A stretch of DNA of 64,000 bases. Source: Clostridia bacterium (lineage in GTDB: Bacteria > Bacillota > Clostridia > Christensenellales > Aristaeellaceae). How positions within the stretch are numbered: position 1 is the stretch's first letter; every line of letters begins with the position of its first letter. The stretch covers positions 372,672 through 436,671 of the forward strand of contig JAFSOC010000015.1 of the NCBI GenBank assembly GCA_017447185.1, in the 5' to 3' direction. Shown piece by piece: positions 9,254 to 50,025 of the stretch. A program made the translations under genes and the position numbers. The notes beneath the pieces are model-generated. The model made no database searches and was not told where the DNA came from. It saw only the letters and a list, made by a program, of their open reading frames with translations.

Positions 9254-9293
9254 AGAAGATTCGCTCCGCTCCATTCATTGGCTTTCCGGTGGA

Positions 9294-9322
9294 ATTATAT
9301 CATTGATTGTTCAAAAAGCAAA
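9294..9322 (-). promoter_or_regulatory. Candidate promoter of the COG2509 flavoprotein gene
   Basis: Minus-strand -10 TATAAT (9294-9299) with an extended TGA just upstream; the -35 TTTGCT (9317-9322, 17-base spacer) is poor. The strong extended -10 carries the call. Confidence 0.5.
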
Positions 9323-9352
9323 TTTCAGATTCCGTTTTCTTACATTTTCATG

Positions 9353-9358
9353 TATAAT
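9353..9358 (+). promoter_or_regulatory. Candidate -10 element of the LCP-zinc ribbon-RsiV-like cluster
   Basis: A plus-strand TATAAT at 9353-9358, about 50 bases before the LCP start. The -35 (TTCCGT, 9330-9335) is weak, so activation by another factor is possible. Confidence 0.45.
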
Positions 9359-9374
9359 AATTAAATCCTTATTA

Positions 9375-9388
9375 CCGGTATATACCGG
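9375..9388. promoter_or_regulatory. 14-bp perfect palindrome just upstream of the LCP ribosome binding site
   Basis: CCGGTATATACCGG is perfectly self-complementary and lies between the -10 (9353-9358) and the AGGAG at 9395-9399. It could be a repressor operator covering the transcription start, or an RNA hairpin (CCGGT/ACCGG) beside the ribosome binding site. Chance occurrence cannot be excluded. Confidence 0.35.
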
Positions 9389-9409
9389 GACGGAAGGAGT
9401 GTTTTGCAA

Positions 9410-10771
9410 TTGCGTAGATTTCTTGTCCTTTTTCTTGCCCTCGTTCTGCTGATTCCCTGTTTTGTTTCAGCGGAAGATGCGGACGACAGCTGGGCAAAAA
9501 AAAGACTTCCGAAAGAAAGGCTTCCTGAAGAAATTAAGATTGTTCCGTGGGATGAGATTCCTTCCCCCTCCCTCGGCCAGCATCATTATCTTCTGCTGTG
9601 CATTGACCAGTGGAAATCAAAGCCGCGTCCAGACGGGATTGAACCGCCCACAGATGGTAACGGCAACCGCCGTGACTATTTTGGCAATACTGACGGCATT
9701 GTTATCCTGACGCTTGATACTGCTGCCCGTCGGATCATGCTGGCTTCCATTGTGCGTGACGCAACGATCCTCAAGCCGAATACCACTGATACGAAACAGT
9801 ATTACGGCCGGATCAATTATGTGTATAACGATTACGGTCCGGAAGCGCTTTGCAAACTGATCAGTGAGCATCTTGGCATTAAGATTGAAAAATACATCCT
9901 TTTCAACTTTTCCCAGATTCAGGATATCATTGATCTTGAAAGCCTTGATGGCGTATATGTGGATCTCAATCGGAACGAAATCGCTTATCTCGCCCGCTTT
10001 GCCGTTCCCAAACGCACCGTAATCAAAGCAGACGGTTATTACGCCCTGAAAGGTGATCCACAAAAAGACGAATACCTGAAACTGCACTACACTGCCAAAA
10101 ACCATCAGGCGCTTGATTTTTCTATTCCCTTTTCACTTTTTACACAGACTGATAACGGTATGGTAACGGAAACAGCAACTGTTGCCGGCACTTCCGGTTC
10201 CTCCATCGTTTTTGAAAAAAACGGCGGGCTTCAGATTATTCTTGCGGACGGATCCAAAGAGAAAGGAAGCTACGGATTTGAGCACAACCGCCTTGAGGTG
10301 ATGACCGGCGATGATGTGCATCTGAATAACCGTGCTGAAGTCGGAACCTATCATATGAAAGGCCATTCTGCACTTCTGTACATGCGGATCCGCAAATCAA
10401 GCCGCGGCGACACCGATTTTATGCGTACCCAGCGTGTACGCAATGTACTGAGCGCCCTGGCTGATGAATGCCGTTCATTTACGCTTGACCAGGCAAATGA
10501 TCTGGCAAACAGTATCATGCAGCATAATGACAAGACAAACATGACGCTGAAAGATATGACGGATGCCGCTTCCTGGGCCTATGATCTTCGCGATTGCACC
10601 ATCGAAGAATTCCGTGTTCCGCCGCAGGAAGATGTTCGTTCCATCACCTTTGCACAGATGTCTGCACTGGAAATCAACTGGTCTTCTGTCAGGAAGAAAT
10701 ACAATGAATTCCTGGATCATACCACACTCGTCCGCGATACTGATTTCGTTGTTGTGGATGATGACGACTGA
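9410..10771 (+). CDS. LytR-CpsA-Psr (LCP) family protein
   Basis: LCP enzymes sit outside the membrane and transfer lipid-linked polymers to peptidoglycan. A signal sequence (MRRFLVLFLALVLLIPC, cleavage after VSA) is followed by HHYLLLCIDQ, DGIVILTLDTAARRIMLASI, VRD and, late in the protein, KGHSALLYMRIRKSSRGDTDF and RTQRVRNVL, the LCP core order. About 90 residues (roughly 210-310) interrupt the core, which is unusual. The start is a TTG: 9410 has AGGAG 10 bases upstream; a TTG at 9404 is also in frame but too close. It is the first gene of a three-gene cluster. Polymer substrate unknown. Confidence 0.8.
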   Translation: MRRFLVLFLALVLLIPCFVSAEDADDSWAKKRLPKERLPEEIKIVPWDEIPSPSLGQHHYLLLCIDQWKSKPRPDGIEPPTDGNGNRRDYFGNTDGIVILTLDTAARRIMLASIVRDATILKPNTTDTKQYYGRINYVYNDYGPEALCKLISEHLGIKIEKYILFNFSQIQDIIDLESLDGVYVDLNRNEIAYLARFAVPKRTVIKADGYYALKGDPQKDEYLKLHYTAKNHQALDFSIPFSLFTQTDNGMVTETATVAGTSGSSIVFEKNGGLQIILADGSKEKGSYGFEHNRLEVMTGDDVHLNNRAEVGTYHMKGHSALLYMRIRKSSRGDTDFMRTQRVRNVLSALADECRSFTLDQANDLANSIMQHNDKTNMTLKDMTDAASWAYDLRDCTIEEFRVPPQEDVRSITFAQMSALEINWSSVRKKYNEFLDHTTLVRDTDFVVVDDDD

Positions 10772-34261: not shown

Positions 34262-34372
34262 TTACCGGATAATAATGGCAAGAACCACTGACAATGTCAT
34301 GACAGCTGCAATAATCAGCGCTCCGATCCGAATATAGCTTTTCTTTTTCTCCGCTTTACTCTTAGCCGTCAT
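34262..34372 (-). CDS. 36-residue single-helix membrane protein
   Basis: Translated from the ATG at 34372 this gives a basic head (MTAKSKAEKKKSYIR) and one membrane helix (IGALIIAAVMTLSVVLAIII). GAAGGAC lies 4 bases before the ATG, and the start overlaps the stop of the large SH3 gene by 11 bases, so it is coupled to it. The strong hairpin follows 14 bases later. It may associate with the membrane helix of the large protein; that is inference. Confidence 0.6.
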   Translation of the reverse strand: MTAKSKAEKKKSYIRIGALIIAAVMTLSVVLAIIIR

Positions 34373-37300
34373 AATTGTCCTTCCCCGTTTCTTTTTCATT
34401 TCCGGCTGTTCTTCTGCGATGCGTGTTTCCGCTTCTTCTGCTTTCATCCGGTTTGAACGATGCCGTATAGGAAGCATCTTCCTCACTTCCGGAAGTATAG
34501 CGGGCATATGGGTTCTCAACGTTTCTGGAGTAAGGTTTGCGCATGGTGCCGCTATCGGCCTGTGATGCCGGTTTTACGGAAGTTGTCCCGTTCTTTTCTG
34601 TATAAGTACCCGTACGAACCCTTGCAGCCTGCTGGGCAGATGCGGGTTGCTTTGCTGCGGTTCCGGACACTCCGGACGGTTTCACAGTTCCCTGTTCTTT
34701 CCGCTGTTGCGCCGCTTTCTTCTGGGCCAGCCGCTGGGCTGCCTGTCGTTTTTTCTGCACGGAGGAATAGTAGAAATAGCCGCCTCCTGCAGCGCCGGCC
34801 AGAAGCAGGCCGCCGATAATCCAGCCCACGGCACTGCCACCCTGGTTTTCCTCCTGTTTATACTGTGGGTTTTCTTCCGTTTCCATCGGAATGCCTTCCG
34901 GTGTGTTCGTCACTTCAGAAGCACCGGAGGAGCCAATCTTCTCACGGACATATGTCATTGCGTTCTGGATAATGGCATCCTTATCTGCACTGTCCCGATA
35001 AGCCGTTTCCAGTAATTTTTCCAGTTCTTCTTCTTTCAGGCTGCCGGCTTTGATCCTGTCTGCCAGTGAATCCAGGTATTCCTTGTTGCGCACATCGTTC
35101 TCAGGCAGAGGCTCAGGGGTCGCAAAAGGATCAAAGGGTTCATAGCTTACGGAAATCCCGCTGTCCGGATTCTTCCAGGTTTCCACCTTTATGTCTTCAG
35201 CGGTCGCAATGCCGGTGGGTGTCCCTGTAGTCTGCGGAGAGGAATTTGTTTGCTGCTGTTCTTCCGGAGCATTGTTACGCAGTCCTGTCCGATATTCTTC
35301 GGACTGGAAGAACGTTTCAGCTTCTGCCACCGTCATCTGCCGGAAATAATCTCCATTCAGATAACCGGTAGTACCTTCGTAGCCAACTTTATACCATACC
35401 GTTCCGTCAATAACTTCCGTATCATAGATCAGGCACAGCGCATACTGTTTCAGGCGGGAAATCCTGGTGGACTGTGCAGAAGGCTGCTGACGGAAATTCA
35501 CGGAGCTTGCGGATACATATCCATAGCAGCTCATTGCATTCGGGTCATAGGGAGCAAGTGTAATTTCCGGTTCGGGTTCGGGGGTGTGCTGTGTCTCCTC
35601 AAGATATGCAAGCACTTCATATTCGTTCATCATCCGGAGCATATCTCCGCGCACATATCCCCATGCGCCGTCATACTGAATCAGATGCCAAGCTGTGTTG
35701 TCCACATATTCCTGTCCGTTCACGTAAACAACTTTATTTGCCGGCAGTTCATCAATAATCACGCTCGTACTGCTTGGATAATTCCGGACATAAGCGCCGT
35801 CACCGATGGTAATTCCGTATCCGAAACGCTGCACAGGTTCCGGAGTCGGTTCTGCGGTAGGTTCAGCTGTCGGTTCTGCAGTTGGTTCAGCGGTAGGCTC
35901 AGCAGTTGGTTCAGCGGTAGGCTCAGCCGTCGGTTCTGCAGTTGGTTCAGCGGTAGGCTCAGCCGTCGGTTCTGCAGTTGGTTGAGCGGTAGGCTCCGCT
36001 GTTGGTTCGGCTGTCGGCTCTGCCGTCGGCTCCGCTGTAGGTTCTGCCGTTGGTTCGGCAGTAGGTTCGGCTGTTGGTACAGCCGTCGGTTCCATGGTCG
36101 GTTCCAGAGTGGGTTCCATTGTGGGCTGTTCCGGTGCGGGCGTAAACAGATCTTCTACAGTGAAGTACGGGGCCGGACTTGTCTGTGTCTGGTTATACAG
36201 ATCGCTTTCTGCTTTGCTCATCGGAACCAGGAACTCAGAAAGAATATAGCCTTCCGTCCCGTCCACCATCACGTGGGTCCATTTTTCATCTTTTGCGTTC
36301 AGGTCTTCCCGGATCATCCATACATGTTTGTTGGCGGGAACAACTTTAATCACATTATTGGCCTTTTCAGGCGCTTTGCGGAAATTGACACTTGACTTTG
36401 TCAGCGCATATCGGTTCAGAATTTCACCCGTGATCACCGGCTCCGCCGTCGGTACAGGTGTAGCCGTCGGCGTTGCGGTCGGTTCAGCTGTGGGTGTTGC
36501 CGTCGGTTCACCGGTCGGTGTCACTGTGGGTTCTTCCGTCGGTGTGGCAGTCGGCTCTTCGGTCGGTTCCTCAGTAGGTGCAGGCGTTGCTGTATATACC
36601 GGCATCTCACCCTTCTCCTGTTTGATCGCCGCATCTTCCCAGCTGGGCAACATATCCAGGTACTGTGTCATTACATAACCTTCGGTACCGTCAATCAACA
36701 CATGCGTCCATGCTTCTGTCTTATCCTGCCCTTTTGTTTCAAAAGCGTATTCCTTGTTTTCAATCAGGTATACGGATGTGTTTTTATTCAGTTGGGATAT
36801 CTTCTTTTCTCCGGTTCCCGGACCTTTCCGGAAGTTTACGTTACCTGTATTTACAACGCCGAAACGGTTCAGAATCGTATCCACTGGGATGGTCAGGTCT
36901 TCCACCGGTACCGGTGTGGCTGTGGGAGTCGGTTCAGGCGTGGCAGTCGGCTCTTCAGTGATAATCGGTGCCGCTGTGGCTGTCGGCTCTTCAGTTACAA
37001 TCGGCACTGCAGTTGCTGTCGGCTCCGCTGACGGTGTTTCAGGCGGATCTGTCGGATCCGGTTCGGGTGTGGCGGTGTATTCAGGCACGGGAGCGGGCGT
37101 CGCAGTATATACAGGCATTTCGTCCTGTTCCTGTTTGATCGCGGCATCCTGCCAGCTTGGCAGCATATCCAGGTACTTCGTCATGACATAGCCTTCTTTG
37201 CCGTCAATCAGGACGAAAGTCCATGCTTCATATGCCTGCGAAGATTCGTTCAGGTACTCCTTGTTTTCAATCAGATAAACCTGTTTGCCCTTCTTGAACT

Positions 37301-38255
37301 GATCAATCTTGTTATCGCCCATCTGCGGAGCGGAACGGAAATTGACGTCATCTGTATTGATGATACCAAACCGGTTCAGGAATACATCCGGCAGAATCGT
37401 CAGATCTTCATAAGGTTCCGGCGTATCTGTCGGAACTTCAGTGGGTATTTCAGTCGGTACTTCTGTGGGTACTTCCATCGGTACACCTGTTGGCACATCA
37501 GTAGGTACTTCCGTCGGCACTTCTGTCGTCACTTCTGTAGGCGCCTCCGTGGGTACTTCCGTCGGCACTTCTGTCGGCACCTCCGTGGGTACTTCCGTCG
37601 GCACTTCTGTCGGCACCTCTGTGGGCACTTCCGTCGGCACTTCTGTAGGTACCTCCGTGGGTACCTCTGTCGGCACTTCCGTCGGTACTTCTGTTGGTAC
37701 CTCAGTGGGCACCTCCGTCGGTACCTCTGTAGGCACCTCAGTGGGTTCCGGTGTTGCTGTCGGTTCAGGTGTTACATCGATATATACAGGCGTCTGCGCA
37801 GTTGTGGAAACATACAGATGATACACTTCCGTATTGCCATACGGATCCACTGCCTGAATTTCAATAAAAGCAGTCATTTCGTTCAGCTGGTCATAAGCTT
37901 CAGGAATAATATCCAGCGGAATTCCTTCGCCGACAGGAGATGGAAAAACATCTTCCCGGTAAGGTTCAGTTTTAACATAATAAATCCAGTCCGGATGCAT
38001 TTCGGAATAAGCTGTCAGGGTTACTGTTCCGGGTGAAAGCATCGTCGGCAGCCCGGCCCAGAAGCTCCCGGGAGCCTCATAGACCGGTGCAGCAATTACG
38101 CTTTGGGGCATATTCTCTGCATCAATCCAGTTCAGTGTAATTACCAGGGAAGTCCAGTCAGGGGAAACGGCCATTGCAGCCGGTACAGCAGACAGGATCA
38201 GCAACGCTGCAATCAGCAGGGCTATGCTTCTTTTCCAGGGTCGATTCTTCTTCAT
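34362..38255 (-). CDS. Giant secreted/anchored protein with five SH3-like domains and Pro-Thr repeats
   Basis: A 1297-residue surface protein. A signal sequence (MKKNRPWKRSIALLIAALLI, AMA cleavage) is followed by a beta domain (to about 160), an E-V-P-T repeat stalk (about 165-275), SH3-like domains at about 285-370, 455-540, 605-680, 808-880 and 905-980, an A-E-P-T stalk (about 708-808), a single helix near 1138-1160 and a basic cytoplasmic tail. Each SH3 unit has a VNFRxxP motif (AYVRNYP in the fourth) and a GYV-type ending (GYVMTKYLD). Bacterial SH3 domains usually bind wall peptides, so a wall-spanning role is likely. Start at 38255 (GGAG 6 bases upstream) rather than 38261. Confidence 0.85.
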   Translation of the reverse strand: MKKNRPWKRSIALLIAALLILSAVPAAMAVSPDWTSLVITLNWIDAENMPQSVIAAPVYEAPGSFWAGLPTMLSPGTVTLTAYSEMHPDWIYYVKTEPYREDVFPSPVGEGIPLDIIPEAYDQLNEMTAFIEIQAVDPYGNTEVYHLYVSTTAQTPVYIDVTPEPTATPEPTEVPTEVPTEVPTEVPTEVPTEVPTEVPTEVPTEVPTEVPTEVPTEVPTEVPTEVPTEVPTEVPTEAPTEVTTEVPTEVPTDVPTGVPMEVPTEVPTEIPTEVPTDTPEPYEDLTILPDVFLNRFGIINTDDVNFRSAPQMGDNKIDQFKKGKQVYLIENKEYLNESSQAYEAWTFVLIDGKEGYVMTKYLDMLPSWQDAAIKQEQDEMPVYTATPAPVPEYTATPEPDPTDPPETPSAEPTATAVPIVTEEPTATAAPIITEEPTATPEPTPTATPVPVEDLTIPVDTILNRFGVVNTGNVNFRKGPGTGEKKISQLNKNTSVYLIENKEYAFETKGQDKTEAWTHVLIDGTEGYVMTQYLDMLPSWEDAAIKQEKGEMPVYTATPAPTEEPTEEPTATPTEEPTVTPTGEPTATPTAEPTATPTATPVPTAEPVITGEILNRYALTKSSVNFRKAPEKANNVIKVVPANKHVWMIREDLNAKDEKWTHVMVDGTEGYILSEFLVPMSKAESDLYNQTQTSPAPYFTVEDLFTPAPEQPTMEPTLEPTMEPTAVPTAEPTAEPTAEPTAEPTAEPTAEPTAEPTAQPTAEPTAEPTAEPTAEPTAEPTAEPTAEPTAEPTAEPTAEPTAEPTPEPVQRFGYGITIGDGAYVRNYPSSTSVIIDELPANKVVYVNGQEYVDNTAWHLIQYDGAWGYVRGDMLRMMNEYEVLAYLEETQHTPEPEPEITLAPYDPNAMSCYGYVSASSVNFRQQPSAQSTRISRLKQYALCLIYDTEVIDGTVWYKVGYEGTTGYLNGDYFRQMTVAEAETFFQSEEYRTGLRNNAPEEQQQTNSSPQTTGTPTGIATAEDIKVETWKNPDSGISVSYEPFDPFATPEPLPENDVRNKEYLDSLADRIKAGSLKEEELEKLLETAYRDSADKDAIIQNAMTYVREKIGSSGASEVTNTPEGIPMETEENPQYKQEENQGGSAVGWIIGGLLLAGAAGGGYFYYSSVQKKRQAAQRLAQKKAAQQRKEQGTVKPSGVSGTAAKQPASAQQAARVRTGTYTEKNGTTSVKPASQADSGTMRKPYSRNVENPYARYTSGSEEDASYTASFKPDESRRSGNTHRRRTAGNEKETGKDNYDG
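35830..36130. repeat. 12-bp tandem repeats encoding A-E-P-T, with 36-bp higher-order pattern
   Basis: About 20 units of a 12-base repeat inside the SH3 protein gene. Synonymous variants recur in a 36-base pattern (three units) around 35880-35990, which suggests recent unequal exchange or slippage. Codon phase is kept throughout. Confidence 0.8.
37430..37745. repeat. 12-bp tandem repeats encoding E-V-P-T, with 36-bp higher-order pattern
   Basis: About 25 units of a 12-base repeat in the same gene. The block near 37549-37640 repeats nearly exactly every 36 bases (units beginning GTGGGTACTTCC, GTCGGCACTTCT and GTCGGCACCTCC on the plus strand). Copy number is likely to vary between strains. Confidence 0.85.
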
Positions 38256-38298
38256 GTGCATCTCCGTCCTTCCGGATTTTTTTCAATGCGACGCGGAT

Positions 38299-40134: not shown

Positions 40135-40998
40135 ATGCAGATGCATACCGATGCACAGATTCTGATGCAGGATGTTTCATTCACTTATGATGAATCAGCA
40201 TCCCCCGCGCTCTCCCATATCTCTGCCAAGATCCGGCAGGGTGAGTTTGTCGCTGTTCTCGGTCATAACGGGTCCGGAAAATCCACACTGGCCAAACTGA
40301 TTAATGCACTTTATATTCCCGGCGAAGGAAATGTTGTCGTCTGTGGGTATGATACAAAGAATGAAAAACTTGTATGGGAAATCCGCCGTCGTGCCGGGAT
40401 GATCTTTCAGAATCCTGACAACCAGATCGTCGCTACCGTTGTAAAGGAAGATGTTGCTTTCGGGCTTGAAAATCTTGGAGTGCCCACAGAGGAAATGATC
40501 CCCCGCATTGAACAGGCACTTTCCGCAGTACGAATGAGTAAATATGCAGATTCAGCCCCGCATACCCTTTCCGGAGGCCAGAAACAGCGGGTTGCCATCG
40601 CCGGTATTCTGGCCATGGAGCCTTCTGTAATCATTGCAGATGAGGCTACGGCCATGCTGGACCCTTCCGGCCGGAAAGAAGTGTTGGAAACTATACAGAT
40701 GCTGAATCGAAGCAAAGGAATCACCGTACTCTGGATTACACATTTCATGGAGGAAGCTGCACTGGCTGACCGCGTTCTTGTTGTGACCGATGGGAAAATA
40801 CAGCTGGAAGGTACCCCCGCACAGGTTTTTGACCAAGTGAGGGAAATGAAGGAAATGCACCTAGATGTTCCCCCAATGGCAGCTTTGGCAGACGACCTTC
40901 GTAAAGAAGGTATGCCGCTTCCGGGCGGAATCCTGACGGTGGAAGATATGGTACGGGAGGTGGAAAAGGTATTATGTCCATTGAAATCCGCAACCTGA
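40135..40998 (+). CDS. ecfA1: ECF transporter ATPase EcfA1
   Basis: One of the two ATPases that energise vitamin uptake by energy-coupling-factor transporters. Walker A GHNGSGKST, Q-loop FQNPDNQIV, signature LSGGQKQRVAIAG, Walker B VIIADEATAMLD and H-loop WITHFMEEA are all intact. The FQNPDNQ motif is typical of EcfA1. GGAGGT lies 5 bases before the ATG. It overlaps ecfA2 by 25 bases. As no S component is adjacent, it is a shared (group II) module; folT at 58918-60024 is a likely partner. Confidence 0.95.
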   Translation: MQMHTDAQILMQDVSFTYDESASPALSHISAKIRQGEFVAVLGHNGSGKSTLAKLINALYIPGEGNVVVCGYDTKNEKLVWEIRRRAGMIFQNPDNQIVATVVKEDVAFGLENLGVPTEEMIPRIEQALSAVRMSKYADSAPHTLSGGQKQRVAIAGILAMEPSVIIADEATAMLDPSGRKEVLETIQMLNRSKGITVLWITHFMEEAALADRVLVVTDGKIQLEGTPAQVFDQVREMKEMHLDVPPMAALADDLRKEGMPLPGGILTVEDMVREVEKVLCPLKSAT

Positions 40999-41867
40999 CC
41001 CATACCTATTCTGAAGGAACAGCTATGCGTACGGTCGCCCTTGAAGATGTCTGCATGACGATCGAGGATGGTGAATTCCTCGGGATCATCGGCCATACCG
41101 GTTCAGGCAAGTCCACCCTTGTGCAGCATCTGAACGGTTTGCTGAAGCCTACATCCGGACAGGTTTTCATCGACGGCGAAGATCTGAACGGTGAACATGT
41201 TAACCGTCGTGCCTTGCGTCAGCGGATCGGCCTTGTTTTTCAGTATCCTGAATATCAGCTTTTTGAGGAAACGGTCGCAAAAGACATCGCTTTCGGTCCG
41301 AAAAACCAGGGACTTTCAAAAGAAGATATTGACGAACGTGTCCGTTATGCCATGGACTGCGTTCATTTGGATTATCAAAAATACAGTGAGCGCAGCCCCT
41401 TTGAGCTCTCCGGTGGACAGATGCGGCGGGTTGCCATTGCGGGCGTTATCGCCATGCGTCCGTCTGTCCTGATTCTCGATGAGCCGACTGCCGGTCTGGA
41501 CCCCCGCGGACGCGACCGGATCCTTTCCATGCTAGAACAGTTGCATGCAGAGCAGCACACAACAATTGTGATGGTCTCTCACAGCATGGATGACATGGCT
41601 CGTCTGGCTACCCGCCTGATTGTTATGGCAGAAGGAAAAATACTCGCCACCGGTACCCCGCGTGAAATCTTTTCGCAGGAGAAAATGATGATGTCCGCCG
41701 GTCTGGGTGTTCCGCAGGTTGCCAGTCTCTGCAGTACACTGCGTGCAAAAGGTTTTGATCTTCCGCCGGATCTATATCGTCCGGAAGAACTGAAAGAACA
41801 TATCCTTCAGCTTTGGAAGAATAAAAACAAAATGAATCTCTCCGGAAAGGAGGGATCGCCGTGCTGA
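40974..41867 (+). CDS. ecfA2: ECF transporter ATPase EcfA2
   Basis: Second ATPase of the ECF module. Walker A GHTGSGKST, Q-loop FQYPEYQLFEET (the YPEYQLF form marks EcfA2), signature LSGGQMRRVAIAG, Walker B VLILDEPTAGLD and SHSMDDMARLA are all present. It is 297 residues. The start lies inside ecfA1 with AAAAGG upstream, so translation is coupled; it overlaps ecfT by 7 bases. Confidence 0.95.
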   Translation: MSIEIRNLTHTYSEGTAMRTVALEDVCMTIEDGEFLGIIGHTGSGKSTLVQHLNGLLKPTSGQVFIDGEDLNGEHVNRRALRQRIGLVFQYPEYQLFEETVAKDIAFGPKNQGLSKEDIDERVRYAMDCVHLDYQKYSERSPFELSGGQMRRVAIAGVIAMRPSVLILDEPTAGLDPRGRDRILSMLEQLHAEQHTTIVMVSHSMDDMARLATRLIVMAEGKILATGTPREIFSQEKMMMSAGLGVPQVASLCSTLRAKGFDLPPDLYRPEELKEHILQLWKNKNKMNLSGKEGSPC

Positions 41868-42679
41868 ACAACATTACCATGGGTCAGTATTACCCCGTAG
41901 ACAGCACCGTACACCGCCTTGATCCCCGCATGAAACTGATCCTAACGATCATTTTCATCGTTGCGGTTTTTATGTCCCACTCCTTTGTCGGATATATCCT
42001 CCTTCTTGGATTTTTGTTCTTTGCCTGTAAAATGTCTAAAGTGCCCTTTAAGCTTCTGCTGAAAGGCCTTAGACCGTTACGGATGATTATCATCCTCACC
42101 TTCCTCCTCAATCTGTTTTTCACGTCCGGAGAGGATCTGTGGGTTTCTTTCTGGATCGTCCGGATTTACCGGGAAGGCTTCATGCAGGCAGTCTTTTATT
42201 CCCTTCGCCTGATTTTTCTTGTAGCCGGTACTTCCCTGCTGACGCTCACCACATCGCCTGTCGCTCTCTCCGATGGAATTGAGATGCTGATGTCGCCGTT
42301 GAAAAAAATCCATTTTCCGGCACATGAACTGGCCATGATGATGACAATAGCACTGCGTTTTATTCCGACACTCCTGGAAGAAACGGACAAAATCATGAAG
42401 GCCCAGACAGCCCGTGGTGCAGATTTTGAAAGCGGCAATCTGCTCGTTCGCGCAAAAGCAATGGTTCCATTGCTTGTCCCGCTTTTTGTCAGCGCGTTCC
42501 GCCGGGCCGGCGACCTGGCCATGGCAATGGAAAGCCGCTGCTACCACGGCGGTGAAGGACGGACACGCCTGCGTGTATTGAAAACCACACGGAATGACTG
42601 GATCGCCCTTGGAATTGTCACACTTCTTTTGGCGCTCATCATTCTGGAAGGTATCTACCTGAAGGGAGTATTGTTTTGA
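41861..42679 (+). CDS. ecfT: ECF transporter transmembrane subunit EcfT
   Basis: Couples ATP hydrolysis by EcfA1/EcfA2 to movement of the S component. About five to six membrane helices, then the two coupling motifs AQTARGADF and AMESRCYHGG (the ARG-type helices contacting the ATPases). The start is a GTG with AGGAGG 7 bases upstream. 272 residues, normal size. It overlaps truA by 4 bases. Confidence 0.95.
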   Translation: MLNNITMGQYYPVDSTVHRLDPRMKLILTIIFIVAVFMSHSFVGYILLLGFLFFACKMSKVPFKLLLKGLRPLRMIIILTFLLNLFFTSGEDLWVSFWIVRIYREGFMQAVFYSLRLIFLVAGTSLLTLTTSPVALSDGIEMLMSPLKKIHFPAHELAMMMTIALRFIPTLLEETDKIMKAQTARGADFESGNLLVRAKAMVPLLVPLFVSAFRRAGDLAMAMESRCYHGGEGRTRLRVLKTTRNDWIALGIVTLLLALIILEGIYLKGVLF

Positions 42680-43467
42680 AGCGTATTCTCCTGACTGTTG
42701 AATATGACGGAACTGCATATGCCGGCTGGCAGCGCCAGTTGAATGGCCTGGCAGTCCAGCAGGTGCTTGAAGAAGCGCTGTCTGAAGCCTGTGCACATCC
42801 GGTTACCGTCACCGGTTCCTCACGGACTGACGCCGGTGTTCATGCAAAAATGCAGATGGTGCATTTTGATACCGGATGTACAATTCCACCTGATAAATTC
42901 CCTTTTGTGCTGAATAATCTTCTTCCTCCGGATATCCGGGTGCAAAAAGCACGGGAAGTTCCTCCGGATTTCCATGCACGTTTCCTGACTTCCGGAAAAA
43001 CCTATACTTACCGCATCCTGAACAACCGTCACGGCAGTGCTCTTCTGCGGAACACCCACTGGCACGTTCCGGTTCCGCTGGATGTTTCCGCCATGAAACA
43101 GGCTCTTTCTTTTCTGCCCGGCACTCATGATTTTGCTGCCTTTCAGGCTGCCGGCGGCACTGCCCGAACCACTGTACGAACCGTTGACCGGGTGGAACTG
43201 ACTGCCGATGGTCCTGTCCTGACACTGACCATCAGTGGCAATGCGTTTCTGTATAATATGGTCCGTATCATTGTCGGTACGCTGGAAGAAGTCGGCCTCC
43301 ACAAACGGAATACTGATGCTTTTGCCCGTGCCTTTGTCTCCATGGATCGCCTGGATCTTGGTATGACTGCACCGTCCTGCGGTCTGGAACTTTCTGAAGT
43401 CCGTTACCCAGACAAGGCTTTCACCGATCCTGATTCCATCCGGTGGCATCGTGAGGAGGAAGAATAA
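42676..43467 (+). CDS. truA: tRNA pseudouridine(38-40) synthase TruA
   Basis: Makes pseudouridine at positions 38-40 of the anticodon arm. The catalytic aspartate is Asp52 in GSSRTDAGVHA; VEYDGTAYAGWQRQ, TYTYRILN, FQAAGG and GNAFLYNMVRIIVGTL complete the family pattern. It starts with TTG overlapping the ecfT stop (TTGA), with GGGAG 7 bases upstream. The ecfA1-ecfA2-ecfT-truA order is very common in Firmicutes. Confidence 0.96.
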   Translation: MKRILLTVEYDGTAYAGWQRQLNGLAVQQVLEEALSEACAHPVTVTGSSRTDAGVHAKMQMVHFDTGCTIPPDKFPFVLNNLLPPDIRVQKAREVPPDFHARFLTSGKTYTYRILNNRHGSALLRNTHWHVPVPLDVSAMKQALSFLPGTHDFAAFQAAGGTARTTVRTVDRVELTADGPVLTLTISGNAFLYNMVRIIVGTLEEVGLHKRNTDAFARAFVSMDRLDLGMTAPSCGLELSEVRYPDKAFTDPDSIRWHREEEE

Positions 43468-45106: not shown

Positions 45107-46534
45107 TCAGTATCCAAGCCACTGCCTGGAAATCTGTATGGCTTCCTCCTTGGTGTAAAGGCTCAGTGTAAGCCGGTGCGGTGCACAGATTACCATGTTC
45201 CACAGCAGCCGGTCTTTCATGTTTTCCAATGTCACTTCACCTTCCGCAATACAGTCATGTCCTTCGCAGTCTGCTTCGATCATACAGAATCCTTCCGGGG
45301 TCATCAGGATTACATTTAACCATTCACTGCCATCGTCGAGCTTCTGTCGTATCGTCCGGGTCACCTCCCCTTCGATCGGCAACGCAAGGAAACCTTGCTC
45401 ATTTGCAGACTGCAGCAGGATGTAGCCCGGTGCCGGATCCGATTCCCGAACCTGTATCAGCAGTGTCAGCGGCTCTTCCGTTTTTTCCGCCGAATCCGGT
45501 TGTTCCAGCGTGATCCAGTTTTCTCCTTCCTCCATGTATTTTCCGAGTCCGGAAGTTCCGGCCGCGCTGCGGTCACGGTTGATAAAAAGGGCTTCCACCC
45601 CGTCCATGCTTTCAATCAGTCTGCTGCCTTTTTCGGTACCCAGGGCAAAGACTGCCGTGGAGAGCGCGTCTCCCATCAGGGAACTGTCAGAGAAAATTGT
45701 TACGGATGCCAGCTCATTCTGTACCGGCCATCCGGTCTCACTCGAAAGGATATGATGATATGTCACTCCGTCTACAGTGAACCCCCGCTCATAAATTCCG
45801 CTGGTCACAGTAGACCCTCCGTAATTCAGTGAAACCATCATCGTCTTTCCTGTCGGCTCGTCAATATCCTGAATACCCACTTTCCAGGGCGAACCGTCTG
45901 GTTTCAGGCCGATCGCCACAATATTACCCCCAAAGGAAAGGATCGCACTGGTGATGCCTGCAGCCTCCAGTTTTGCCTTGACTGCGTCTGCGATATATCC
46001 CTTTGCAATACCTCCAAGGTCGATCATCATTCCAGCCGGCAGTGTAACATTGTTTCCTTCAATCTGAATCTGCCGGAAATCCACCAGGCGCGCTGCCTGC
46101 TCTATCGTTGCCGATTCAGGAATAATCTGGCTTCCGGACGTGAAATCCCACAGAACGGAAACCGGAGCAATGGTAATATCAAAAGCACCATCAGATACTT
46201 CGCTGATTTTGACGGCAGTGCGCAGGATTTCAGCCGTTTCTTCGGATACGGTCACTGTATTTCCTTCTGCGTGGTTAATATTCCATACATCACTGCCTTC
46301 AACCGTTCGGCTCAGCATTTTTTCGTATTCACCGCAGTATTCCAGTCCCTTATCCAGCAATTCCGGCTGGTCTGTATAGGCAGTCAGCGTGATGACTGTA
46401 TCCAGGTAGTAACCGACTCTGGTCTGTTTGGGAAGATCGGATGCTTTCGCATGCCGATAACCGCATCCACCCATCACCAGTGTCATCACAATCAGCGCAG
46501 CCATTGTCCGTAAAAAGCTATTTCTTTTTTTCAT
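45107..46534 (-). CDS. FAD:protein FMN transferase (ApbE) fused to a NusG domain II
   Basis: ApbE attaches FMN covalently to Thr/Ser of exported proteins, taking it from FAD. A lipoprotein-like signal (VMGGC, Cys24) precedes the ApbE domain: VGYYLDTVITLTAY, IDLGGIAKGYIADAV, ILSFGGNIVAIG and GDALSTAVFALGTEKG with the metal-binding Asp. Residues about 370-470 are a NusG-II domain (FLALPIEGEVTRTI, EADCEGHDC, VICAPHRLTLSL), normally a separate small protein near such genes. At 475 residues it exceeds ApbE alone (about 340). It is divergent from a reductase with two FMN-attachment motifs, its likely substrate, and overlaps the Gx gene by 4 bases. Confidence 0.88.
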   Translation of the reverse strand: MKKRNSFLRTMAALIVMTLVMGGCGYRHAKASDLPKQTRVGYYLDTVITLTAYTDQPELLDKGLEYCGEYEKMLSRTVEGSDVWNINHAEGNTVTVSEETAEILRTAVKISEVSDGAFDITIAPVSVLWDFTSGSQIIPESATIEQAARLVDFRQIQIEGNNVTLPAGMMIDLGGIAKGYIADAVKAKLEAAGITSAILSFGGNIVAIGLKPDGSPWKVGIQDIDEPTGKTMMVSLNYGGSTVTSGIYERGFTVDGVTYHHILSSETGWPVQNELASVTIFSDSSLMGDALSTAVFALGTEKGSRLIESMDGVEALFINRDRSAAGTSGLGKYMEEGENWITLEQPDSAEKTEEPLTLLIQVRESDPAPGYILLQSANEQGFLALPIEGEVTRTIRQKLDDGSEWLNVILMTPEGFCMIEADCEGHDCIAEGEVTLENMKDRLLWNMVICAPHRLTLSLYTKEEAIQISRQWLGY

Positions 46535-47229
46535 TTCTTCTGTCCCTCCGGTTTATCCGGATTCATATGCAGCGCACGGAATACACGCTCCGCAACGATA
46601 CCGGTCAGCGTTCCTACCGCGGCGCCTATACCAACCAGTACGGGCAGGTAAGTCGATAAAAGCTGTGGAGTGCGCAGCACGATACTGGCAGCCAGTACCT
46701 GTCCGATATTATGCGCAATCGCCCCGGCGATGGAAGTCCCGGGAACGCCACGGATCTTTCCCTTCCGGATCGCGATCCATGCGGCAACACACACAGCACA
46801 GGCCACACCGATCAAGATGACGATCCAGAGCCGTTGTCCGCCTGGATGTGGGTTTTGAATCAGCAGCATGGTTTCTGCTCCTGCCGCAAGGATACCGGCG
46901 CACAATGCGCCGCTTTCCGGTTTGCGCCGGATCAGCAGCATCACCAGCAGGCTCAGGATACCACCGGAAAGGCTGTAAAGAATTGCTGTCAGGCTGCCGA
47001 AAATCAGGCCGGAAAGAATAACCTTCGCCAGCATCAGGAATACTGCGCTTTGCCAGTCCATCAGGTAGACTGCATATAGCAGTACCGTATTTGCAAGACC
47101 CAGTTTAATCCCAGGAGCTGCGCCGCCCAGCAGTGCCGTAAGGGGAATCGCCCGGTCCAGCAGACCGAGCACCAGCGCCAAAGCTGTCAGCAGACCAAAC
47201 CGTGCCACTTTCTGTGTCGCTGTATGCAT
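46531..47229 (-). CDS. Gx-type membrane protein (heptaprenyl diphosphate synthase component I-like)
   Basis: A 232-residue membrane protein with six helices. The start MHTATQKVARFGLLTALALV and the segment PGIKLGLANTVLLYAVYLM match the Gx transporter / HepS-component-I family, distant relatives of ECF S components, often encoded with ApbE and NusG-II proteins. A role in moving flavin or quinone precursors across the membrane is inferred only. The ATG at 47229 has GGAGG 9 bases upstream. The frame stays open much further upstream, but that extension runs opposite to the reductase gene and is rejected. Confidence 0.85.
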   Translation of the reverse strand: MHTATQKVARFGLLTALALVLGLLDRAIPLTALLGGAAPGIKLGLANTVLLYAVYLMDWQSAVFLMLAKVILSGLIFGSLTAILYSLSGGILSLLVMLLIRRKPESGALCAGILAAGAETMLLIQNPHPGGQRLWIVILIGVACAVCVAAWIAIRKGKIRGVPGTSIAGAIAHNIGQVLAASIVLRTPQLLSTYLPVLVGIGAAVGTLTGIVAERVFRALHMNPDKPEGQKK

Positions 47230-47291
47230 TGCGTTTCCCCTCCTCTCTTTTTTCATCATATCATAAATTGTTTCTGTCCGCTCAAATAAAT

Positions 47292-47303
47292 TTTGTATAC
47301 AAA
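47292..47303. promoter_or_regulatory. 12-bp perfect palindrome in the divergent flavin-module intergenic region
   Basis: TTTGTATACAAA is perfectly self-complementary, about 63 bases upstream of the Gx gene start and 90 bases before the reductase -35. It may be an operator acting on the Gx-apbE side. AT-rich palindromes also arise by chance. Confidence 0.35.
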
Positions 47304-47393
47304 TGCCCTTTTTCAGGCCCAAAATTGATGAAATGCTTATGCGGCAAGGAGTAAAAGGTACGAACAATTTTTTGCCAATTTCAGGAAAACCGG

Positions 47394-47423
47394 TTGACGC
47401 AAACGTTTGCTGAAGCGTAAAAT
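47394..47423 (+). promoter_or_regulatory. Promoter of the extracytosolic flavoprotein reductase with a LacI-type operator
   Basis: -35 TTGACG (47394-47399) and -10 TAAAAT (47418-47423), 18-base spacer. A perfect palindrome with central CG, GCAAACGTTTGC (47399-47410), fills the spacer. Central-CpG palindromes of this kind are bound by LacI-family regulators, and a repressor here would block RNA polymerase. The leader is about 60 bases. Confidence 0.7.
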
Positions 47424-47487
47424 AATTTTCGGTCCGGGCGCTGGTCATTGCCCGTATCAATAACAATTTGAAAGGGTGAAGAATCCC

Positions 47488-49974
47488 ATGAAAAAACTGG
47501 TTTCTCTTCTCCTGTGCATTTGCCTCGTTCTGGGCTGCGTAGCCTTCGCTTCCGCTGAAGGCTATGTACCCGGCACATACGAAGCAACGGCCCAGGGCTT
47601 TGGCGGCGACGTCAAAGTAATCATCGAGGTCGATGAAAACGGTATCAAAGGTGTCAAAATCGAGGGTGCTGCCGAAACGCCCACTGTCGGCGGCGCTGCG
47701 ATTCCTGATCTGGAAAAGCAGATCATTGATGCGAAGTCTGCTGAAATTGACGGCGTTGCCGGTGCCACCATTACCAGCACAGCCGTGAAGGAAGCCGCTG
47801 CCAAGGCGATCACTCTGGCTTCCGGTGCTGAAGCACCCGCTAAAGAGCCCGTTGCCCTGGCCTTTACAGCCGGCGACTATGAGGTGACGACGGATGGCTA
47901 CAACGGCCCGGTCACTTTCAAAGTTTCCTTCTCTGACACTGCCCTGACCGGTGTTGAAATCGTTTCTTCCATGGAAACCGCGCATGTTGGTACGCCCGCC
48001 TTCACTTATATGATTCCGGACATGATCGAAGCCAACGGTTCCGGTGTGGACGGCGTTTCCGGCGCCACTTTCTCCGGCCGCGCCCTGCGCAATGCAGTGA
48101 ACCAGGCTGCAGAAAAAGCCGGCTGCACCGATCTGGAAGCCTTCAAGGCTGCCAAGGTTGAACATTCTGCCCAGGCTCCTATTGAAAAGACCGTTGACAT
48201 CGTCGTGGTCGGTGCCGGCGGCGCCGGTATAGCTGCGGCTGCCCAGGCGGTCCAGAACGGCGATACCGTCCTGGTTCTCGAAAAGAACGCTGAAGTTGGC
48301 GGCAACACACTGGTTTCCGGCGGTCAGTTCCAGTCCGTTATGCCCTACCTGGTATGGGATAAGAACGATCCGGATGCCGAGACCGGCGTCTACGGCCGCG
48401 ACAGTCAGACTTACAACAAAGTCAAGTCCGTAAAAGGCTGCATCAACGAACTCAAGATGATCCTTGACTGGAGCGAAGAGCCCTTTGATGAGGAATACTA
48501 CAAGACCCATGAGTTCGTCGCTGGTGACGCTGTTGAGCTGAGCAAACACGGCGTACATGCCGAATACCTTCCCATCTTGCAGGAGCTGAAGAAAGAAATC
48601 CAAGCTTATTTGGACTGGGCACAGCCCAAGCTCGATGCGGGCATCGATGAAAGCCAGCTGACTCTGTTCTCAACCATCAACCTGCACATTTTCCAGACTT
48701 ATTATGGCGGCCTACGCCAGAGCGCTGACAAGTCTCAGTGGATTTACGGCAACCTGGATCTGGTCAAACAATTTGTTGAAGACGGCCAGGGTCTGAAAGA
48801 GTGGCTGGAAGACATGGGCGCTCACTTCATTGAAGATACCCAACCCACCCTGATCGGCGCGCTGTGGTATCGTGAAAATGAGTACCTGCCGCAGGATGGC
48901 AACTGGGGTACCTATTTTATCGGTCCAGTAGCCACCATCGGCGAAAACAACATCATGTTGCGCACCACCGCAACCGAACTGATTGTCGAGGACGGCAAGG
49001 TCACTGGTGTGAAAGCTGTTCAGTTTGATGGTACCGAAGTCACAGCTCACGCATCCAAGGGTGTTGTACTTGCCACCGGCGGTTATGCTGCCAACATCGA
49101 CATGGTACTTGAGAACAACGTTTATTGGGACACCGCTTATCTGACTACTTCCACCAAGACCACCAACCGGTCGTCTCAAGTGGGCGACGGAATCACCATG
49201 GCTGAAAAAGCCGGCGCTTCTTCCACTGGCCTTGGCTTCACTCAGCTGATGCCTATCTCCTGGGTGGATAACGGCAACCTGGCCTTCGGTGGCGGCAACT
49301 ATGCCTGCTGGATCAACCCGACCACTGGTAAGCGCTTCGTGGATGAAGGTTCCGAGCGTGACGTGCTGTCCCTGGCTGAGTTTAGGAATGGCATCGTGAA
49401 AAACAATACCCCCGGCGTCTTCATCGAATTCTACAATGCTGAGCAGAAGATCCCCGGACCGCCCACCGCCCAGCTGCAATCGACTGACTATGCCGGCCGT
49501 TACTACCACATCAAGGGCACCGTGGAAGAGCTGACCAAACTGTTCGCGGATCCTGAATTTGCCGGTGTTTCTGCGGATCCCTCTGTAGTGCTGGAAACCA
49601 TCAAGGCTTATGACCAGGCGGTTATGGGCAACGGTGAATTCCCGGATGTCGGCAAGGGCATCGCTTCCCGCACGATCGGTAACGTTGAGAAGAGCGAAGA
49701 TGGCAAGTACCTCCCGGATACCTATGACCTGGAAGGCACGGATCTGATCGTCCGTCTGATGGCTCCCTCTACGCACCACACAATGGGCGGTATCGTAGTG
49801 GACACTAAGCGTCATGTGCTTAATGCTGAAGGCGAAATCATCCCCGGCCTCTATGCTGCGGGTGAAGTCACCGGCGGTATCCACGGCGGCAACCGTCTGG
49901 GCGGTAACGCCATCGTCGAAATCTTTGTTTCCGGCCGTACCGCCGCCAACGCGATCGACGAGGATAACAAGTAA
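47488..49974 (+). CDS. Secreted fumarate-reductase-like flavoprotein with two FMN-binding domains
   Basis: An 828-residue exported reductase. After a signal sequence (cleavage near ASA-EG) come two FMN_bind domains with covalent-attachment motifs DGVAGATIT (Thr94) and DGVSGATFS (Thr194). The FAD domain follows (VDIVVVGAGGAGIAAAA, about 236) with HHTMGG and GGNRLGGNA near the end, and FVDEGSERD keeping the catalytic Arg of flavocytochrome c. The substrate loop reads TQLMPISW rather than the HPT of fumarate reductases, so the acceptor is probably another unsaturated acid. AAAGGGTG precedes the ATG at 47488. Codon use is strongly biased, suggesting high expression. Confidence 0.9.
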   Translation: MKKLVSLLLCICLVLGCVAFASAEGYVPGTYEATAQGFGGDVKVIIEVDENGIKGVKIEGAAETPTVGGAAIPDLEKQIIDAKSAEIDGVAGATITSTAVKEAAAKAITLASGAEAPAKEPVALAFTAGDYEVTTDGYNGPVTFKVSFSDTALTGVEIVSSMETAHVGTPAFTYMIPDMIEANGSGVDGVSGATFSGRALRNAVNQAAEKAGCTDLEAFKAAKVEHSAQAPIEKTVDIVVVGAGGAGIAAAAQAVQNGDTVLVLEKNAEVGGNTLVSGGQFQSVMPYLVWDKNDPDAETGVYGRDSQTYNKVKSVKGCINELKMILDWSEEPFDEEYYKTHEFVAGDAVELSKHGVHAEYLPILQELKKEIQAYLDWAQPKLDAGIDESQLTLFSTINLHIFQTYYGGLRQSADKSQWIYGNLDLVKQFVEDGQGLKEWLEDMGAHFIEDTQPTLIGALWYRENEYLPQDGNWGTYFIGPVATIGENNIMLRTTATELIVEDGKVTGVKAVQFDGTEVTAHASKGVVLATGGYAANIDMVLENNVYWDTAYLTTSTKTTNRSSQVGDGITMAEKAGASSTGLGFTQLMPISWVDNGNLAFGGGNYACWINPTTGKRFVDEGSERDVLSLAEFRNGIVKNNTPGVFIEFYNAEQKIPGPPTAQLQSTDYAGRYYHIKGTVEELTKLFADPEFAGVSADPSVVLETIKAYDQAVMGNGEFPDVGKGIASRTIGNVEKSEDGKYLPDTYDLEGTDLIVRLMAPSTHHTMGGIVVDTKRHVLNAEGEIIPGLYAAGEVTGGIHGGNRLGGNAIVEIFVSGRTAANAIDEDNK

Positions 49975-49989
49975 TACTCCAGTCATAAC

Positions 49990-50025
49990 AAAGACCCGCT
50001 GCACTTGCGCAGCGGGTCTTTTATA
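49990..50025. terminator. Bidirectional terminator after the flavoprotein gene
   Basis: AAAGACCCGCTGC (49990-50002) pairs with GCAGCGGGTCTTT (50009-50021), followed by TTAT on the plus strand; the minus strand also ends in CTTT. It lies between two converging genes. Confidence 0.9.

Follow-up and report, generated by a model that had tools for sequence, protein, structure and literature searches.

Is a gene for a secreted reductase with two putative FMN sites, facing a gene for an ApbE-type FMN transferase, a self-contained device for using outer electron acceptors, or one piece of a larger flavin chain? The locus considered here lies in a window of 64,000 nucleotides (the whole stretch analysed) from a Clostridia bacterium. 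A preliminary description had read the reductase and two divergent genes as a self-contained module. Our results point instead, with a probability of roughly 0.65, to one unit for FAD export and FMN transfer that serves an Rnf-fed extracytosolic flavin chain, of which the secreted reductase would be one terminal enzyme.

Organisation of the locus

The three reading frames of the preliminary description are all open where it had placed them, and the features of the region are as follows.

40135..42679, plus strand: ecfA1, ecfA2 and ecfT (as read), a shared ECF energising module and candidate motor of EetB
to 43467 (end), plus strand: truA (PF01416), 3' of ecfT
45107..45529, minus strand: EetA-type NusG_II domain, residues 336-475 plus stop, fused to ApbE
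45530..46534, minus strand: ApbE FAD:protein FMN transferase part, residues 1-335 (PF02424)
46531..47229, minus strand: Gx or EetB-type membrane protein (PF07456), candidate ECF-S FAD exporter, function by homology to Listeria EetB
47394..47423, plus strand: sigma-70-like promoter TTGACG-18-TAAAAT 5' of the reductase (motif scan, near chance)
47488..49974, plus strand: secreted reductase, 828 aa, with signal peptide, two FMN_bind domains and FAD_binding_2
50003..50017, plus strand: terminator-like hairpin 3' of the reductase (scan, at chance)

The Gx gene and the ApbE-NusG_II gene (45107-46534) overlap by 4 bases. The promoter scan returned 3 candidates against a mean of 1.6 in shuffled sequences, which is close to chance, and the hairpin scan 4 against 3.7, which is at chance. 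Between 39000 and 56000 no Rfam family, FMN riboswitch included, was matched at its gathering score. The ecf genes, absent from the preliminary description, lie 2.4 kb from the ApbE gene and offer A and T partners for an ECF-S exporter; their names are presumed from similarity. The ecf and truA genes stay neighbours of the locus in L049, L053 and L094, and in part in L052 and L107.

The secreted reductase

The N-terminus of the reductase is hydrophobic. FMN_bind (PF04205) matches the protein in two stretches, with a whole-protein E of 2e-26, and FAD_binding_2 matches at E 9.7e-52. Its motifs DGVAGAT and DGVSGAT terminate at Thr94 and Thr194, the putative FMN acceptors named earlier. Both threonines are invariant, as are Asp88, Ala93, Asp188 and Ser191-Gly192-Ala193, in an alignment of the window's sequence with nine others at 69-79% identity. 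The second motif fits the published D-x-x-[S/T]-G-A-[S/T] in full, whereas the first has Ala in place of Ser/Thr at position 4, as do 4 of the 10 aligned reductases, the window's included. When the reductase was shuffled 20,000 times, the relaxed motif D-x-x-[A/S/T]-G-A-[T/S] appeared at least once in 341 shuffles and at least twice in 5. The protein combines the FMN_bind motif (Ala-variant in the first copy), FAD_binding_2 and signal peptide of a flavinylated extracytosolic fumarate-reductase-like enzyme. It is probably secreted rather than lipid-anchored, since Cys17 is not kept throughout the alignment. A dN/dS of 0.17 against L049 indicates purifying selection.

In alignment with the fumarate reductase 1e39, Arg402, His504 and Arg544 fall on R624, H763 and R803, so the idea that the catalytic arginine had been lost proved wrong. 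His365, Thr377 and Glu378 of 1e39 are replaced by Met588, Phe600 and Gly601. If His365, Thr377, Arg402, His504 and Arg544 have the roles in fumarate reductase that we assume for them, the secreted reductase departs from a fumarate reductase proper at the first two of these five.

ApbE and the candidate FAD exporter

The ApbE assignment of the preliminary description is secure, PF02424 scoring 277.2 bits against a cut-off of 25.6. The best solved relative is 7esa (E 1.7e-56), which we take to be Listeria FmnB. The putative FMN transferase keeps its active-site residues: Arg250 and His261, invariant in 16 sequences, align with the presumed positions of FmnB Arg262 and His273, a matching that assumes a 20-residue numbering offset in 7esa. 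Read by eye, the N-terminus VMGGC is lipobox-like. The dN/dS of the ApbE part is 0.10 against L091, at high dS. No other ApbE was found in the assembly, although its completeness of 88.7% leaves room for another ApbE, or a donor, outside it.

The Gx-type membrane protein was also correctly recognised (PF07456, 107.3 bits; cut-off 30), and its gene is the only one of that family found in the assembly. PF07456 is the family by which eetB homologues are defined in PMC9973259, where Listeria EetB is described as an FAD-exporting ECF-S subunit that binds FAD and is needed for flavinylation of PplA. By analogy, we regard the Gx protein as a candidate EetB, exporting FAD, rather than as a redox partner; an electron carrier and a heptaprenyl diphosphate synthase were set aside in favour of EetB on the same family assignment. 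The protein carries an extra hydrophobic insert; its 166-aa counterpart in L117 is shorter. A sequence search of the PDB gave no meaningful relative (best E 5.3), and dN/dS against L091 is 0.14.

An EetA-type domain

The NusG_II domain (PF07009) at the end of ApbE scores weakly, with 16.8 bits for the whole protein and 19.7 for the domain alone against a cut-off of 29.6. The fusion described earlier nevertheless holds through its relatives: PF07009 matches every one of the 50 aligned NusG_II domains at E <= 0.01, with a best value of 6.1e-33. A profile search with the domain returned only 4esn, 3ld7, 2kpp and 4obi at E below 1e-7. Listeria EetA is, we presume, a PF07009 protein, and in relatives' loci an EetA/NusG_II gene adjoins that of EetB. 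Invariant residues are Asn407, Cys423, Cys428, Cys450 and Pro452, the three cysteines being so in all 50 aligned sequences. A Rieske-like metal site in the pattern C-x4-C ... C-x2-[HN] was entertained as an idea only; in Lin0431, as aligned, the first two cysteines are missing. Among papers on PF07009 and related names, two take Lin0431 as a test case for structure or scattering work, and none, judged by title, concerns flavins. Our literature search found no link between ApbE and NusG (a match for NusG, ApbE and flavin concerned copper stress) and nothing pairing EetA with NusG.

The flavin inventory of the genome

Nine FMN_bind domains were found in the assembly. Two are in the secreted reductase and the other seven lie within 6.2 kb on contig C30, adjoining rnfC-DG-E-A-B: one in an RnfD-G fusion, five in a 653-aa membrane protein and one in a second reductase; none was found outside these two places. 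The Rnf complex (L013:9572-14615) comprises subunits A, B, C, D, E and G, with D and G in one protein; PF02508 (two matches) and FMN_bind were called by profile, the others by eye. By eye, DAVASAT can be read in the RnfD half, and the RnfG site, SAISGAS, is without the usual Asp. The second reductase (L013:4437-6188) is of fumarate type, keeping all five fumarate reductase residues in alignment to 1d4c. Rnf and the secreted reductase are on different contigs of this assembly. The preliminary description had held that the system lacks only its membrane electron donor; this was not borne out, with Rnf and a multi-FMN protein elsewhere in the assembly and Gx read as EetB. We infer that the donor is most simply this Rnf complex.

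Weighing of alternative explanations

The pairing of reductase and ApbE stands as likely, and the three genes are indeed syntenic in other Clostridia: the reductase is divergent from EetB-ApbE-EetA in four of the six further genus members sampled, and lies within 6 kb of ApbE in 10 of 20 close ApbE loci from the named genome collection. This adjacency could mean that ApbE and Gx are dedicated to this reductase, with a donor left unassigned. The other two genus mates, whose only ApbE is a distant one and for which no full-length reductase orthologue is among the matches listed, agree with such exclusive service. Against it, the single ApbE found shares the assembly with Rnf and two further proteins bearing flavinylation motifs; the nearest relative has its reductase and ApbE on separate contigs; this ApbE type occurs in G010, G293 and G295 with no orthologous reductase among the matches listed; and a multi-FMN protein lies within 4 kb of ApbE in 7 of the 20 close loci. 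Given the single ApbE, the Rnf cluster and RUG363, we reject this self-contained arrangement as very unlikely. The reductase could instead be fed by quinol or a NapH-like membrane protein, which is possible in view of one UbiA-family prenyltransferase gene (match identity uncertain) and two Fer4_5 proteins in the assembly; Listeria FrdA is reportedly fed by a quinone-linked EET system. That route is unlikely, however, as all FMN_bind domains found belong to the reductase locus or the Rnf cluster, the assembly has no Ferric_reduct match, and L106 joins the reductase to Rnf. There, a single cluster holds the reductase, EetA-EetB-ApbE, a multi-FMN protein, rnfC-D-E-A and EetA. L046, L095, L100 and L102 carry EetB-ApbE-multi-FMN-Rnf; the reductase was seen adjacent to Rnf only in L106 and L100 (in L100 as a C-terminal piece at the contig end). 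PMC9973259 counts 572 Clostridia genomes in which eetB lies beside Rnf genes.

As to the fusion, the parts of the locus are of known kinds and the joining of ApbE to EetA is the less expected one. EetA is a separate gene in relatives, and the loss of a stop codon may have joined the neighbours without functional meaning. In the four syntenic genus mates the two genes are 11-13 bases apart (L052, L053, L055) or overlap (L049), which makes fusion an easy accident, and a clean eetA deletion in Listeria is described as having no EET phenotype (PMC9973259). However, L091, a second species, has the same fusion with a different linker, and dN/dS is about 0.1 on both parts (0.09 for EetA against L091, at high dS), so a sequencing artefact was rejected. 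A second clade of fusions, six proteins of another family chosen for their long frames, stands far off in the ApbE tree; one lineage has a lipobox-like N-terminus, and the other has two hydrophobic segments before EetA. In addition, 28 of 40 family loci place EetA on the strand of ApbE and no more than 400 bases away, and in 15 of these 28 no EetB was found in the stretch. An accident is thus possible but doubtful. The tree disfavours a single origin of all fusions; splits would yield the same pattern, so one ancient fusion is conceivable. The fusion ties EetA to ApbE and hints at its role. It is quite conceivable, if short of probable, that EetA, as an extracytosolic domain, works together with ApbE and couples the EetB exporter to FMN transfer, and that two lineages fused separately. 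Together with published EetA-EetB fusions, separate ApbE-EetA fusions would suggest an EetB-EetA-ApbE assembly for export and transfer.

Proposed mechanism and relation to known systems

On this evidence, the locus probably combines the maturation centre of a flavin-only extracytosolic electron chain, which Rnf would feed, with one of that chain's terminal enzymes. FAD would be exported by EetB, energised by the shared EcfA1A2T, and ApbE-EetA, with the EetA domain probably docking or assisting ApbE, would attach FMN from this FAD to Thr or Ser of FMN_bind-type sites in RnfG, RnfD, the five-FMN membrane protein, the fumarate-type reductase and both domains of the secreted reductase. Rnf would take electrons from ferredoxin or NADH and hand them by way of the five-FMN protein to the secreted reductase, first to its two FMNs and then to its FAD; this enzyme would reduce the activated C=C bond of a carboxylate. 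The locus illustrates a proposed, little-tested idea, that in anaerobes Rnf can feed extracytosolic flavoprotein reductases through multi-FMN proteins; such reductases would determine which dissolved electron acceptors are usable. The repeated EetA-ApbE fusion also gives EetA a testable role.

The EET locus of Listeria, with FmnB (an ApbE), EetA, EetB, FmnA, PplA and Ndh2 (PMC9973259), likewise places an EetB-family protein beside ApbE and an EetA-type neighbour, exports FAD for extracytosolic flavinylation (putatively so here) and has an extracytosolic fumarate-reductase-like target. Here, in contrast, ApbE and EetA are fused, the donor is read as Rnf, and no PplA, Ndh2 or demethylmenaquinone gene was recognised in the neighbourhood read (the genome-wide search covered UbiA, with one match). 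PMC9973259 places EetA next to EetB in thousands of genomes and assigns it no role. Urocanate reductase and Listeria FrdA share the signal peptide, FMN_bind, FAD_binding_2 and the aligned Arg402, His504 and Arg544 with the secreted reductase (PMC8238504), which differs in its two FMN domains, its substitutions at Met588, Phe600 and Gly601 and an additional stretch, seen by eye, around 290-420.

The Rnf cluster of this genome, with its membrane protein of five FMN domains, resembles the multi-flavinylated Rnf clusters of PMC8238504 and PMC11334425, in which multi-flavinylated RnfG is proposed as a second path to outer acceptors. Unlike in those, the present assembly has Rnf and the ApbE/EetB unit on separate contigs and a single RnfD-G protein; in L106 a cluster of this kind also includes this reductase. 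In the trypanosomatid fumarate reductase, ApbE is also fused with a functionally linked domain (PMC12052999); its partner is the target enzyme, whereas here it is the EetA/NusG_II domain.

Locus organisation and the reductase

The three genes seen in the preliminary description as a self-contained extracytosolic flavin module are present as described:

47488-49974, + strand: secreted reductase
46531-47229, - strand: Gx protein (EetB)
45107-46534, - strand: ApbE fused to EetA, a NusG_II-domain (PF07009) protein

In the 828-aa reductase the N-terminus is hydrophobic, and a FAD_binding_2 domain accompanies two stretches of FMN_bind. It contains both of the FMN-attachment motifs previously claimed, ending at Thr94 and Thr194, and neither Thr varies in an alignment of 10 sequences, the window sequence among them. 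The published flavinylation motif is D-x-x-[S/T]-G-A-[S/T]; in the first reductase motif Ala stands in place of Ser/Thr, as it does in 4 of the 10 aligned sequences, the window's included. When the reductase is aligned to 1e39, Arg402, His504 and Arg544 correspond to R624, H763 and R803, all invariant among the 10 sequences. We take Arg402 of 1e39 to be the proton donor, and His504 and Arg544 to bind the substrate carboxylate. In the same single alignment, whose 1e39 chain is a mutant with Ala at position 365, the positions of His365, Thr377 and Glu378 become Met588, Phe600 and Gly601. The retained Arg/His/Arg set, together with these replacements, suggests a C=C reductase that would hold one carboxylate, with a more hydrophobic far side, and not a fumarate reductase. 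Elsewhere in the window (34362-38261), a 1299-aa surface-type protein has long PTEV and EPTA repeats separating repeated domains.

Conservation of the arrangement

The expectation that the three genes would occur together in related genomes held in part. The fusion protein was searched against 150 family genomes, with a match in 139, and 40 ApbE loci were compared (the 39 best-ranking plus that of G020). The reductase is divergent from EetB-ApbE in 9 of the 12 closest loci (L044-L055); in the other three a multi-FMN protein follows ApbE instead, with Rnf genes also present in L046 and a contig edge ending L047 and L048. Four of the six other genus members share the window arrangement. In the remaining two (G026, G149) the only ApbE is a distant one, and the listed matches include no full-length orthologous reductase. 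What did not stand is a fixed three-gene module. The nearest ApbE relative (L091, from RUG363) lies in the order EF-G, PepT, EetB, ApbE-EetA, with no reductase within its 21 kb; the RUG363 reductase (75% identity) sits on a different contig, and a third contig carries Rnf genes, a 991-aa multi-FMN protein and a fumarate-type reductase. Three further genomes (G010, G293, G295) have the window type of ApbE and no orthologous reductase among the listed matches.

In the named collection, the best 80 of 575 ApbE loci were binned by ApbE score, with distance limits of 6 kb for the reductase, 10 kb for Rnf, 5 kb for EetB, 3 kb for EetA and 4 kb for multi-FMN proteins; some contigs are common to the named and family sets. 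EetB, EetA, reductase and Rnf were found, respectively, in 16, 17, 10 and 5 of the 20 close loci (>=400 bits), in 5, 4, 1 and 3 of the 8 middle loci (290-400 bits) and in 16, 15, 0 and 23 of the 52 distant loci, all tallies being lower bounds because several loci stop at contig edges. The close loci also include seven with a multi-FMN protein and one with ApbE and EetA fused. One locus, L106, runs from a reductase truncated at the contig edge through EetA, EetB, ApbE and a multi-FMN protein to rnfC, D, E, A and a further EetA. Among these best 80, many of the closest assemblies have sheep, goat or buffalo gut as their source or are RUG-named, presumably from rumen.

ApbE-EetA fusions

The proposed fusion is also borne out, the ApbE gene continuing into the NusG_II domain; this domain scores 19.7 bits, under the Pfam cut-off of 29.6, and its assignment is backed by 50 of 50 aligned members at E <= 0.01. 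ApbE and NusG_II form one protein in L091 as well, with a linker of different length, and dN/dS between the two fusions is 0.10 (ApbE part) and 0.09 (EetA part), rough values because dS is high (1.56 and 3.03). In the four syntenic genus mates a separate NusG_II gene directly follows ApbE, at 11-13 bases (L052, L053, L055) or with an overlap (L049); in L044, L045, L050 and L051 the gap after ApbE is about 330-360 bases.

An order-wide sample of 151 genomes (103 with a match) gave, the window's aside, nine NusG_II matches in frames of >=400 aa, eight of which were fetched together with G235. G195, G196 and G235 were rejected as fusions, NusG_II there ending an unrelated open stretch. Six proteins, all of family f19 and picked for their long frames, have ApbE over the cut-off (136-165 bits) followed by NusG_II, which is over the cut-off in one and has E of 9e-7 to 0.0038 in the other five. 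These fusions, of about 620-720 aa, are:

L195:1713-3572
L196:3918-5954
L197:2-2005
L198:1874-4042
L199:2691-4760
L201:2561-4513

EetB is the next gene in five of the six. A hydropathy check, made on L201 alone, shows two hydrophobic segments between ApbE and the NusG_II core. In an ApbE tree (65 rows, midpoint root; the L195 row is long and of odd composition) the two fusion groups form distinct clades, each supported at 100/100, and unfused sequences fall between them. A single old ApbE-EetA fusion is less likely on this tree, although many later splits would give the same pattern.

Flavin sites and possible electron source

Genome-wide absences rest on an assembly that is 88.7% complete. 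One ApbE, one PF07456 gene (seen as two pieces of one frame) and one UbiA-family gene were found in it, with nine FMN_bind domains, two in the window reductase and seven on contig C30, where stretch L013 holds Rnf, a candidate electron source, and neighbouring genes:

rnfC, rnfD-G fusion, rnfE, rnfA, rnfB
7591-9552: 653-aa protein directly after rnfB, with five FMN domains and one N-terminal hydrophobic segment
4437-6188: second secreted reductase (583 aa), near the Rnf cluster

The reductase domain of the second reductase aligns to the flavocytochrome c fumarate reductase 1d4c (432 bits) and keeps the fumarate-reductase catalytic positions. RnfD carries a DAVASAT motif, and the RnfG motif, SAISGAS, is without Asp. 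Counting the nine FMN_bind domains and DAVASAT, the window ApbE, as the one such enzyme found, would serve about ten predicted sites. FMN units three and four of the five-FMN protein look almost the same, and what we take to be an SGNH-like gene is also on C30. On contig C29, a 528-aa protein (L202:268-1854) joins a Fer4_5 membrane part to a thioredoxin/TlpA-like domain, perhaps forming an outer thiol-reduction path.

EetA, EetB and the Listeria system

In 28 of the 40 family loci EetA and ApbE share a strand and are no more than 400 bases apart; 15 of these 28 showed no EetB within the stretch, and seven of the 40 (L056-L062) have neither EetA at this distance nor EetB. In the sampled loci EetA is thus associated with ApbE no less closely than with EetB; our reading is that it has a putative part in docking, in handing over flavin or in supporting ApbE. 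Another EetA-type gene (L175:9148-9570) stands alone on contig C12, a different contig from that of EetB and ApbE; its neighbour, by its appearance, presumably encodes a YitT-type membrane protein. Three cysteines, one Asn and one Pro are invariant in the EetA domain (n=50); among its relatives of solved structure, all of them unnamed or uncharacterised, Lin0431 is without two of the cysteines. A literature search, most subscription papers being outside its reach, turned up nothing that connects ApbE and NusG_II. A Listeria eetA deletion is reported to lack an EET phenotype (PMC9973259), which counts against an essential role of EetA there.

The Gx protein is confirmed as a PF07456 member. The window EetB has 232 aa vs 166 aa in L117; an insert of about 60 residues containing extra hydrophobic segments is present in the close clade and absent from aligned Lachnospiraceae-type EetB. 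Four other stretches (L087-L090) have EetB homologues with a C-terminal extension and EetA adjoining, and no ApbE was found in them. Nearby in the window are:

40135-43467: genes read as ecfA1-ecfA2-ecfT, then truA

These genes stay nearby in the genus-type loci L049, L053 and L094, and partly in L052 and L107. In published counts, an eetB homologue occurs in 4,214 of 31,910 genomes, with eetA as a neighbour in 3,328 and apbE in 2,169, and Rnf genes adjoin eetB in 572 genomes of class Clostridia (PMC9973259). Listeria EetB is described there as an ECF-S-like, FAD-binding protein that partners with the ECF T and A subunits and is required for PplA flavinylation (PMC9973259). Given these data and the nearby ecfA1-ecfA2-ecfT genes, the Gx protein would most simply be, by analogy with Listeria, the FAD supplier for ApbE and a candidate ECF-S, rather than a member of the electron path.
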